A stretch of 64,000 nt of DNA from contig NZ_AP023360.1 in assembly GCF_018326265.1 (NCBI RefSeq), positions 1,169,501-1,233,500 on the forward strand, given 5' to 3'. The stretch is from Catellatospora sp. IY07-71. GTDB lineage: Bacteria > Actinomycetota > Actinomycetes > Mycobacteriales > Micromonosporaceae. The notes under the pieces are model-generated. The model worked only from the letters and a program-made list of their open reading frames with translations, made no database searches and was not told the DNA's origin. The translations under genes and the position numbers were made by a program. This document shows, piece by piece, positions 10,581-27,784 of this stretch (the first letter of the stretch is position 1; each line of letters starts with the position of its first letter).

Positions 10581-10589
10581 TGTGGATAA
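10581..10589 (-). promoter_or_regulatory. Perfect DnaA-box 9-mer in intergenic DNA
   Basis: TGTGGATAA here is the reverse complement of the classical DnaA box TTATCCACA. It lies upstream of the ESX-partner gene. A single box is weak evidence for DnaA control, and chance occurrence is possible. Confidence 0.3.
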
Positions 10590-24165: not shown

Positions 24166-25151
24166 CCCGGCTCGACCCATCGATCGCCGCCATCCGCGCC
24201 GCGATCCGCACCGCCCTGCCCACCCTCCCTGAGGGTCCCGCGCGAATGGTGCTCGTGGCGTGTTCGGGTGGGGCGGATTCGCTGGCGCTGGCCGCGTGCA
24301 CCGCGTTCGTCGCACCGCGGGCCGGGTGGCGGGCGGGGCTGGTGACGGTGGACCACGGGCTGCAGGACGGGTCGGCGGAGCGGGCCGGGCAGGTGGCGAG
24401 CTGGGCCCGCACGCAGGGGTTCGAGCCGGTCGAGGTGGCCGCGGTCGAGGTCGGGACGGACGGCGGGCCGGAGGCGGCGGCGCGGGAGGCGCGGTATGCC
24501 GCGCTGGCCGACGCGGCACGGCGGCACGGCGCGGCGGCGGTCCTGCTCGGACACACCCGCGACGACCAGGCCGAGACGGTGCTGCTGGCGCTGGCGCGCG
24601 GTGCAGGGCCGCGCGGGCTGGCGGGCATGCCGGTGCTCCGGGAGCACCTGGGGGCACGGTTCGCCCGGCCGCTGCTGGACGTGCCGCGGGACGCGTGCCG
24701 GGCGGCGTGCGCCGCGCTCGGGCTGACCCCGTGGGACGACCCGCACAACACCGACCCGTCCTACGCCCGCGCGCGGGTGCGGGCGGACCTGCTCCCGGCG
24801 CTGGTCACGGCGCTCGGCGAGGGTGTGGTGGCGAACCTGGCCCGGACCGCGAGCCTGCTGGCCGACGACACGGCCCACCTCGACGAGCTGGCGGAGGCGG
24901 CGCTGGCGCGCTGCCGTACCCCCCATGGGTTGTCCACAGCCGAGCTGGGAAAGCTGCCCGCGGCGCTGCGCACCCGGGTGCTGCACGGGTGGGCCGCGGA
25001 GCTGGGGGCGTCCCGCGCGGCGCTGTCGCACCGGCACGTGGCGGCGCTGGACGCGCTGGTCACCACGTGGCACGGGCAGGGTCCGACGCTGCTGCCCGGC
25101 GGGATCGCGGTGGCCCGGCGCGGCGGCGAGCTGGCCGCCGCACCGGGCTGA
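24162..25151 (+). CDS. tilS: tRNA(Ile)-lysidine synthase
   Basis: TilS modifies the CAU anticodon of tRNA-Ile to lysidine, changing decoding from AUG to AUA; it is essential in most bacteria. ATG 24162 overlaps the metalloprotease stop. The 329-residue protein has the PP-loop SGGADS (~36-41), then GHTRDDQAETVLLALARGAG and the conserved DPHNTDPSYARARVR segment; the C-terminal part is short, as in other actinobacteria. It converges on dacB with only four bases between the two stops. Its usual downstream partner hpt is displaced. Confidence 0.93.
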   Translation: MTRLDPSIAAIRAAIRTALPTLPEGPARMVLVACSGGADSLALAACTAFVAPRAGWRAGLVTVDHGLQDGSAERAGQVASWARTQGFEPVEVAAVEVGTDGGPEAAAREARYAALADAARRHGAAAVLLGHTRDDQAETVLLALARGAGPRGLAGMPVLREHLGARFARPLLDVPRDACRAACAALGLTPWDDPHNTDPSYARARVRADLLPALVTALGEGVVANLARTASLLADDTAHLDELAEAALARCRTPHGLSTAELGKLPAALRTRVLHGWAAELGASRAALSHRHVAALDALVTTWHGQGPTLLPGGIAVARRGGELAAAPG

Positions 25152-25155
25152 GCCC

Positions 25156-27198
25156 TCAGTGGCAGCCGCAGGCCGCCATCGCGGCGGGGATCTTGTCGAG
25201 CAGCTCCTGCGCCGGGTACATGCCGATCGGGACCTTGTCGGCGAGCACGGCGAAGGCCAGCAGCCGCCCGTCGGCGGTCTCGACGACGCCGGACAGCGAG
25301 TTCACGCCGTTCAGGGTGCCGCTCTTGGCGCGCACCACGCCGAAGGCGCTGGTGGACTTTCCGAAGCGCTCGGTCATCGTGCCCGACCAGCCGCCGACCG
25401 GCAGGCCGTTGAAGAAGTCGCCGAGCACGGCGCCGTCGCCGTACGCCTTGACCAGCAGGCTGGTGAGGATGCGCGGGGTGAGCTTGTTGCCGGCCGACAT
25501 GCCGGAGCCGTCGTGCAGGGTGCTCTGCGCGGGGTCGAGGCCGAGCTCGGCCACCACCTCCTCCAGCGCCTCGGCGGCGCCGGCGAACGAGGCGGGCTTG
25601 CCCTTGGCTAGGGCGACCTGCCGGGCCAGCGTCTCGGCCAGGGTGTTGTCGCTCTCGATGAGCATCTGCTCGACCTGGCGCAGCAGCGGCGCCGAGCGCA
25701 CCGCGCCCAGCTCGGTGCCTGGGGCGGGCGGCCCGGCGGCCGCGCTCGGCGCGGCCGAGGCGCTGGCGGCGACCTGGCCGCCGCCGCTGCCCGCGGGCGC
25801 CTTACCCTTCGCGACCGCGCTGGTCGGCACGCCGAGCAGCTTCGCGAACGCGTCGCCGGCCGCACGTTCCGGGTCGTTGTAGCGCTCGAACGGGGTCTTG
25901 CGGTCCTTCAGCCCGGTGCGCGCCCCGTTGATCATCAGGGCGGGGATCTTCGAGACGTTGCCCTCCTTGGCCGCGTTCGGCGACCAGGTGGGGGCCGTGA
26001 CCGGACCGGGGAACAGCGAGCCGTCGAGGATCACCTTGGTGATCGGGGTGTCCCCCATCGCCTTCTTGACCTGCGCCGCGAGGTCGTCGAGCTGAGGGGC
26101 GCCCGCGTAGTACTTCTCCTTGGTGACGCCCAGCGTGGCGTCACCGGCGCCGATCAGCACGACCTCGCCCGGGTTCGCCCCGGCCACGACCCGGGTGGTG
26201 ATCCGGTAGTCGGGCCCCCGGGTGGACAGCACGGCCGCGGCCGTGACCAGCTTCGTGTTGGACGCCGGGGTGAGCATCTCGGTGGGCGCCCGCTCGTAGA
26301 GCACCTGCCCCGTCCCGGCGTCGACCACCGACACGCTCACCTGGTCGCCCAGCTGGGTGCCGGTGACCAGCGGATCTAGCAGTATCTTCAGCTGCTGCGG
26401 GTCCGGCAGCGGGGCGTCGGCCAGCTTGGCGAGCACCGGCGCCGCGGCCGGCTCGGCGGGCGGGGCCGCGCTGGGCGTCTCCCAGCCGGGGCTCGCCAGC
26501 AGATCGGACAGTAGGCCGGGTTTCAGCACGGCGACGCCGACCAGGCCCGCGCCGAGCGCCACCACCAGTGTGAGCACCGTCACCAGCACGCCGCGCCTGC
26601 GCTTCCTCGGCTTGCCGGCGGCGCTCCCCTCGGGACGCGCGGGCGGGCGGACGGGGGCGCTCGGGCGGGCGCCCGGCGGCGGACCGGTCACCGCAGGCTG
26701 GGTCTGGGTCGGCTCGTCCTGGCCCGGGGCGCCGTAGCCGTAGCCGGGCGCGCCGCCGTAGGGCTGGGTCTGCGGGTAGCTCTGTCCGTAGGGCTGTGGA
26801 TATCCAGGGTGTCCCATACCCGACTGATGTCCACCGGGGCCGTGGTCGCCCTGTGGATATCCCCCCTGGTCAGGAGTGGTCTGTGGATAGCCGGCGGGAT
26901 TCGGGCCCGGCTGGGGATAACCGCCGTGACCAGGGGCGTTCTGTCCGTACGCACCGTATCCGGGCGCGTACTGCGGGTCATGGGGCGAGCTGTGCACATC
27001 CTGTGGATAACCGCTCGGTCCCGGGCTTGCGGCCTGTGGATAAGACGGTGGATACCCGCCAAGTGCCTGGTCCGCGGGCTGTGGATAACCACTGTGGGGG
27101 TGCCACACCCACTCCCGGCCGCTCCACACCCACTCGCCCGGCGTGGAACCCCCGCCATCTGCGGGTTCGGCCCCGTAGTGTGAACCTTGCCTCCCCAA
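25156..27198 (-). CDS. dacB: D-alanyl-D-alanine carboxypeptidase/endopeptidase (PBP4 type)
   Basis: DacB is an S13 serine peptidase trimming peptidoglycan stem peptides outside the membrane. From TTG 27198 it has 680 residues; the start is uncertain because no ribosome site is seen and in-frame GTGs follow. Residues ~1-190 are a cytoplasmic Gly/Tyr/Pro/Gln-rich tail with repeated GYPQ. A membrane anchor lies near 205-228. The S13 domain has SNTK (~316), SDN (~516) and KSG (~624). The GYPQ repeats use TAT and CCA, codons rare elsewhere here, and create DnaA-box-like 9-mers. It is divergent from ppa, as in Mycobacterium. Confidence 0.92.
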   Translation of the reverse strand: MGRQGSHYGAEPADGGGSTPGEWVWSGREWVWHPHSGYPQPADQALGGYPPSYPQAASPGPSGYPQDVHSSPHDPQYAPGYGAYGQNAPGHGGYPQPGPNPAGYPQTTPDQGGYPQGDHGPGGHQSGMGHPGYPQPYGQSYPQTQPYGGAPGYGYGAPGQDEPTQTQPAVTGPPPGARPSAPVRPPARPEGSAAGKPRKRRRGVLVTVLTLVVALGAGLVGVAVLKPGLLSDLLASPGWETPSAAPPAEPAAAPVLAKLADAPLPDPQQLKILLDPLVTGTQLGDQVSVSVVDAGTGQVLYERAPTEMLTPASNTKLVTAAAVLSTRGPDYRITTRVVAGANPGEVVLIGAGDATLGVTKEKYYAGAPQLDDLAAQVKKAMGDTPITKVILDGSLFPGPVTAPTWSPNAAKEGNVSKIPALMINGARTGLKDRKTPFERYNDPERAAGDAFAKLLGVPTSAVAKGKAPAGSGGGQVAASASAAPSAAAGPPAPGTELGAVRSAPLLRQVEQMLIESDNTLAETLARQVALAKGKPASFAGAAEALEEVVAELGLDPAQSTLHDGSGMSAGNKLTPRILTSLLVKAYGDGAVLGDFFNGLPVGGWSGTMTERFGKSTSAFGVVRAKSGTLNGVNSLSGVVETADGRLLAFAVLADKVPIGMYPAQELLDKIPAAMAACGCH
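26795..27088. repeat. Cluster of DnaA-box-like 9-mers inside dacB
   Basis: Exact TGTGGATAA occurs at 27002-27010, 27035-27043 and 27080-27088. TGTGGATAT lies at 26795-26803 and 26852-26860, TGTGGATAG at 26882-26890 and TGGGGATAA at 26912-26920. All have the same orientation and coincide with (G/S)YPQ codons. Confidence 0.7.
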
Positions 27199-27247: not shown

Positions 27248-27265
27248 TTCGCCAACGTCGGCGAA
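27248..27265. promoter_or_regulatory. Operator-like palindrome between dacB and ppa
   Basis: TTCGCC and GGCGAA (27248-27253, 27260-27265) are separated by AACGTC in the 91-base divergent promoter region. It may bind a regulator of either gene; no binding protein is identified. Confidence 0.35.
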
Positions 27266-27289: not shown

Positions 27290-27784
27290 ATGGATTTCGA
27301 CGTCACGGTTGAGATCCCCAAGGGGCAGCGGAACAAGTACGAGGTCGACCACGAGACCGGGCGCATCCGGCTGGATCGCACCCTTTTCACCTCCACGCAG
27401 TACCCGGCCGACTACGGCTTCATCGAGAACACGCTGGGCGAGGACGGTGACCCGCTCGACGCCCTGGTGCTGGTGCAGGAGCCGACCTTCCCCGGCTGCC
27501 TGATCCGGTGCCGGGCCATCGGCATGTTCCGCATGCGCGACGAGAAGGGCGGCGACGACAAGGTCCTCTGCGTCCCGGCCGACGACCCGCGCCTGGAGCA
27601 CCTGCGTGACATCCATCACGTGGCCGAATTCGACCGCCTGGAGATCCAGCACTTCTTCGAGGTCTACAAGGACCTCGAGCCCGGCAAGAGCGTCGAGGGC
27701 GCGACCTGGGTCGGCCGCACCGAGGCCGAGGCCGAGATCGTGCGCTCGTTCGAGCGCGCCAAGGAAACCCCGCACGAGCACTGA
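27290..27784 (+). CDS. ppa: Inorganic pyrophosphatase
   Basis: Ppa is the soluble family I pyrophosphatase, hydrolysing PPi to drive biosynthetic reactions. The 164-residue protein has the family signature around [11 protein letters not shown], plus the active-site blocks [17 protein letters not shown] and the late [17 protein letters not shown] 27290 has GGGAG six bases upstream. Gene ppa next to divergent dacB is the usual actinobacterial order. A perfect 19-base hairpin follows the stop. Confidence 0.96.

Follow-up and report, generated by a model that had tools for sequence, protein, structure and literature searches.

To our knowledge, the means by which actinomycetes restrain re-initiation of replication are poorly known. 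Smulczyk-Krawczyszyn and colleagues are said to have described in 2006 the DnaA-box clusters H69, H24, and D78 of Streptomyces coelicolor, and deletion of D78 reportedly raises initiation. Bacillus subtilis carries six DnaA-box clusters outside oriC, and deletion of the six leads to early initiation (Okumura et al. 2012, via PMC13220808), an effect read there as sensitivity to free DnaA. In Escherichia coli, DnaA boxes accumulate near oriC, which Olivi et al. 2025 (PMC12371093) read as aiding titration. Short motifs can also be kept in reading frames, at places where they do the protein little damage, as is described for the uptake sequences found in Haemophilus and Neisseria DNA (PMC1939737).

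Here we describe a group of DnaA-box-like sites at the 5′ coding end of the cell-wall gene dacB in Catellatospora sp. IY07-71. This array of likely DnaA sites, which is preserved in related soil bacteria, probably helps control the timing of replication start. Like the S. coelicolor clusters, it belongs to an actinomycete and to a set of clusters around oriC. It resembles the B. subtilis clusters in that DnaA boxes are grouped outside oriC, but it lies within coding sequence, shapes the peptide, and occurs in a different phylum. Whereas the E. coli boxes number in the hundreds and follow a relaxed consensus (PMC12371093), the genome studied here has few strict boxes, which are grouped and some of which sit at fixed spacing in coding tails. 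A comparison can also be made with the E. coli elements datA, DARS1, and DARS2, in which DnaA boxes in a set order, at a distance from oriC, act on DnaA; these elements are described as non-coding (PMC12371093), and the dacB array is coding. DNA uptake sequences differ in being spread genome-wide through uptake bias and in being neither DnaA sites nor ordered arrays. A literature search that covered few subscription journals turned up no publication describing DnaA boxes within dacB or within the coding tails of the genera examined. Origin-proximal clusters are known as such, but an ordered array that is kept in coding sequence and writes a protein tail was not found in print in this search.

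DnaA boxes in the dacB coding region

The window, meaning the whole stretch of 64,000 nucleotides that was analyzed, comes from a chromosome of 8,595,826 bp assembled as a single contig. Among named relatives, Catellatospora bangladeshensis came out closest (97% in the DacB core). The features of the locus are as follows.

25156..27198, minus strand: dacB ORF, D-Ala-D-Ala carboxypeptidase (Peptidase_S13, PF02113, match 8e-74)
27290..27784, plus strand: ppa, inorganic pyrophosphatase (PF00719, 1.6e-58, and family search), divergent from dacB
27080..27088, minus strand: core box 1, exact TTATCCACA, encoding part of GYPQ
27035..27043, minus strand: core box 2, exact TTATCCACA, 45 bp away from core box 1 and encoding part of the SYPQ within YPPSYPQ
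27002..27010, minus strand: core box 3, exact TTATCCACA, 33 bp from box 2
26991..26998, strand not assigned: TGTGCACA palindrome adjoining core box 3, encoding VH
26912..26920, minus strand: variant TTATCCCCA, with none seen in the dacB tails of relatives
26882..26890, minus strand: variant CTATCCACA, with an exact box in a comparable position in genome G051
26852..26860, minus strand: variant ATATCCACA, with a similar variant in G051
26795..26803, minus strand: variant ATATCCACA, with a similar variant in G051

The N-terminus of DacB is a low-complexity tail, roughly 200 residues long, that precedes a transmembrane segment, and the DNA encoding this tail contains the boxes. Within 294 bp (26795-27088) there are seven 9-mers with at most one mismatch to TTATCCACA: three are exact, three are altered at the first base, and one is TTATCCCCA, all of them on the minus strand, which is the coding strand of dacB. 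The sequence-only reading had reported these seven sites in one orientation, and the observation was confirmed. The gap between dacB and ppa measures 91 bp, and the array lies within the coding DNA of dacB instead. An inverted repeat in this gap (TTCGCC-N6-GGCGAA, 27248-27265) is a possible operator.

Across the window, nine matches at no more than one mismatch were counted versus 1.41 expected from shuffles, and seven of the nine fall in the 294-bp dacB stretch. None of 100 shuffled windows reached nine matches, and in 40 further 20-kb samples of this genome two or more such sites never fell in a single 294-bp stretch. Elsewhere in the window are a lone exact TTATCCACA at 10581-10589 (minus) and a lone TTGTCCACA at 24930-24938 (plus). 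The TGTGCACA palindrome occurs once in the window and nowhere in an 800-kb sample of this genome; beside box 3, it is a possible weak DnaA site.

Codon choice and preservation across genera

The codons that write the boxes are scarce in this genome. In an 800-kb sample of 453 predicted genes, whose calls rest on a GC3 heuristic, TAT makes up 252 of the 4294 codons for Tyr, and CCA 402 of the 12188 for Pro. Because these counts are low, we consider both codons to be avoided, as the sequence-only reading had claimed; the nearby YPQ that it had noted as coded by TACCCGCAG is indeed present, at residue 140. In the dacB tails of 15 genomes, however, 60 YPQ triplets use TAT in 58 cases and CCA in 58, versus 16/102 (TAT) and 61/473 (CCA) outside YPQ in the same tails. 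The spelling TATCCACA[G/A] is found in 57 of the 60, the opposite of the TACCCGCAG coding in relatives that had been named as speaking against a DNA function. The codon before YPQ ends in T in 47/60 instances spread over ten residues (G, A, S, R, V, D, P, H, T, and L), and T-ending codons make up 281/1828 outside YPQ. General codon relaxation in low-complexity tails was considered and rejected: TAT and CCA outside YPQ are above the genome sample but far below their use within YPQ.

When the window protein was held fixed and codons were drawn at genome frequencies, three exact boxes arose in 0 of 200,000 draws. A null built from each tail's own codons, which is conservative in that the usage tables include the boxes themselves, reached the observed exact count in 0 to 8 of 5000 draws for 14 genomes and in 52 of 5000 for G061. 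For the 8-mer TATCCACA, this conservative null discriminates less well where tails are short, giving 122 to 159 of 5000 draws in G009, G017, and G042.

To survey relatives we used ppa as an anchor and read 75 loci, window included, from 115 genomes with a ppa match; every genome with a ppa match from the six genera that carry boxes is among the 75. Those genera are g1 (Catellatospora, eight genomes), g39 (three), and g10, g17, g42, and g19 (one each). At least two exact boxes are present in the dacB tail in 15/15 of these related genomes and at least three in 14/15, with counts per tail of 2 to 5 and two exact boxes in G061. Each of the 60 other Micromonosporaceae lacked a box in the 800 bp preceding the ppa start. 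G091, G116, and G045, which lie beyond the 75 loci, had no box either. Since most Micromonosporaceae are without the dacB array, the family as a whole does not depend on it. A few scattered sites occur elsewhere near ppa in other genera: in g18 (L103-L108), for instance, six of six genomes have a single exact TTATCCACA beyond ppa, ~1.9-2.0 kb from its start.

In a tree of Ppa and the DacB core (74 of the 75 loci), the genomes with boxes split into two clades, both with good support: g10+g39 and g1+g17+g19+g42. Since they fall in two clades, the 15 are not independent, and Fisher values treat relatives as independent. A single origin appears in 39% of bootstrap trees, and the box genomes may possibly share one origin.

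Preservation over the six genera is seen at the level of DNA. A pair of boxes at 0/+45 is present in 11/15 genomes, and a third at +78 in 10/15; in 10/15, TGTGCACA follows the 0/+45/+78 array directly and at the same offset. Order and spacing are thus 45/33 in 10/15, and the remaining genomes have 33-bp steps or mixed spacing. The 33-bp step recurs in G080, G039, and G009; g39 and g10 have this step and extra boxes but lack the 45-bp step. In g19 the third box is absent, and one TTGTCCACA and two inverted boxes come next: its genome G019 carries inverted TTATCCACA twice, reading TGTGGATAA and encoding VDN. One inverted TTTTCCACA, encoding VEK, occurs in each of G017 and G042. What is conserved among relatives is limited to the three exact boxes and the following TGTGCACA; the four dacB variants have partial counterparts in G051, the nearest sister genome, and in no other. 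Outside the boxes, DNA identity between genera is 0.467 in an alignment of ten rows picked for three exact boxes at 45/33 (5/15 rows dropped), so that the box identity of 1.0 holds by construction and the flank values alone are informative. The dacB tail is conserved as DNA and not as peptide: the DacB tail's own sequence is not conserved, and its YPQ triplets are for the most part what the boxes encode. The sites are kept beyond chance and protein constraint, as is expected of an oriC-proximal DnaA-box cluster.

These data bear on the two origins that the sequence-only reading had proposed for the boxes, namely that repeat expansion froze a chance sequence or that the codons are kept for DnaA binding or titration. 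The latter is favored by the retention of a wobble T, the diverged flanks, and the inverted boxes, which support selection as DNA, with DnaA binding or titration as the putative function. Expansion of a peptide repeat with a frozen chance codon choice and no DNA function can draw on the recurrence of GYPQ tails in the genome, including a second such gene that is also boxed (see below). Nevertheless, the wobble T before YPQ is retained while the residue changes, and the flanks have diverged as far as noted. TATCCA is used in 0 of 8 YPQ triplets elsewhere in the 800-kb genome sample, all eight being coded by TACCCGCAG or TATCCGCAG. The inverted boxes in g19 encode another peptide, and a peptide-level cause would not yield one DNA word in two orientations. 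The frozen repeat was therefore ruled out on wobble-T retention, inverted boxes, and diverged flanks, and we assign it only a very slight probability.

The fixed spacing raises another alternative, in which the array would be an ordered switch of the DnaA nucleotide state, promoting ATP hydrolysis like datA or reactivation like DARS, and not a passive sink. The 45/33 spacing with TGTGCACA in 10/15 genomes suggests an ordered complex. However, spacing differs in g39 and g10 (33-bp steps), orientation differs in g19, and datA and DARS are described as non-coding (PMC12371093). We regard such a switch as unlikely.

Distance from oriC and other box groups

Only one DnaA domain IV was found in the genome (1,434,787-1,434,990, minus strand). 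It matches the DNA-binding domains of PDB entries 3pvp/3pvv (6.5e-34) and 1j1v (1.1e-20), which we take to be DnaA of Mycobacterium tuberculosis and of E. coli, respectively. Because this DnaA has a standard DNA-binding domain, its binding to TTATCCACA is very likely. Just upstream of dnaA, exact TTATCCACA occurs twice and TTGTCCACA once, along with variants, and this region is taken as oriC.

The genome-wide count called for by the sequence-only reading gave 22 copies of TTATCCACA in 8.6 Mb, versus 2 for the reversed control. Seventeen of the 22 lie within 600 kb of oriC versus 3.1 expected (15 of 20 with the oriC sites excluded). The 600-kb radius was picked after viewing this genome (G000), and seven other complete family genomes serve as the test. 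TTATCCACA is enriched near oriC in all eight genomes (G000, G088, G090, and five others, with G009 and G118 left out as they comprise several contigs), although the strength varies: for clusters apart from oriC, the origin bias is not significant in G088 (8/35, p = 0.083) and weak in G090 (p = 0.011). The dacB array, ~240 kb from oriC, contains 3 of the 22 exact TTATCCACA and 6 of the 44 TATCCACA of the genome. It thus consists of several close DnaA boxes outside oriC in the origin-proximal part of the chromosome. The distance from ppa to dnaA is 202-251 kb in G118, G080, G009, G017, and G087.

A second gene with a GYPQ tail, unrelated to dacB, lies ~525 kb from oriC (G000:C1:911335-911502, L004, minus). 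Its tail, the limits of which were set by a crude pattern, has nine YPQ and five TATCCACA, with two exact boxes; the C-terminal part yielded no Pfam match. In the eight Catellatospora genomes this tail holds 2 to 4 exact boxes (8/8), and with the protein fixed, two boxes arose in 0 of 20,000 draws for each of the eight. Homologues outside Catellatospora had no boxes except for one TATCCACA in G061.

Several other groups were observed. A 77-bp segment at an ORF's 5′ edge (G000:C1:1085372-1085448, L006) carries five sites within one mismatch of TTATCCACA, and three exact boxes ~314 kb from dnaA in G118 are perhaps the same locus. At 15 kb from oriC (G000:C1:1451220-1451395, L016), DnaA boxes are interleaved with two TTTCACGTGAAAC sites, which we presume to be parS-like. 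A box pair sits between adjacent ORFs that by eye resemble gyrB and gyrA (G000:C1:1426550-1426589, L012), and a box group with two TGTGCACA precedes a DnaB-like helicase ORF (1488140-1488216, L018).

Probable titration, possible gene regulation, and the DacB tail

The main rival to titration is control of dacB and ppa transcription, whereby DnaA on the array would act as a roadblock inside dacB, regulate ppa, or both, tying wall remodeling or pyrophosphate removal to the replication state. The location near the 5′ ends of both genes also fits gene regulation: in 15/15 genomes dacB has its first exact box 66 to 132 nt into the gene, and the boxes are ~150-400 bp from the ppa start. Moreover, other box groups of the genome occur in or near 5′ regions, such as those before the DnaB-like gene and between the gyrB- and gyrA-like ORFs. 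However, the array occupies the coding region and not the 91-bp gap, the second coding cluster is in an unrelated gene ~525 kb from oriC, and the density of the motif tracks proximity to oriC. We judge this explanation to be a minority possibility, with perhaps a one-in-five chance, and rank it above the nucleotide switch.

Because box clusters outside oriC are known from B. subtilis, and a density peak from E. coli, we chose titration as our reading. With some confidence, we favor the dacB array as an oriC-proximal DnaA-box cluster inside coding sequence that would titrate DnaA. The three consensus boxes at fixed spacing would bind DnaA in the cell. At ~240 kb from oriC, the array would be duplicated soon after initiation, and the duplicated boxes would therefore soak up DnaA, such that re-initiation may be damped.

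More tentatively, the DacB tail, together with that of the second membrane protein in Catellatospora, could be mainly a coding-compatible carrier of an ordered DnaA array. Replication-control DNA would then have colonized and in large part written the protein, making the array a coding-embedded counterpart of datA, DARS, or the B. subtilis clusters in which box number is selected while positions, orientation, and peptide turn over.

The compact dacB array could be removed by synonymous recoding with the protein unchanged, which offers a clean test of a role in replication control. The finding also suggests that DNA serving chromosome control in bacteria can set the amino acid sequence of a protein tail, so that tails of this kind merit a look at the DNA first and at the peptide second.
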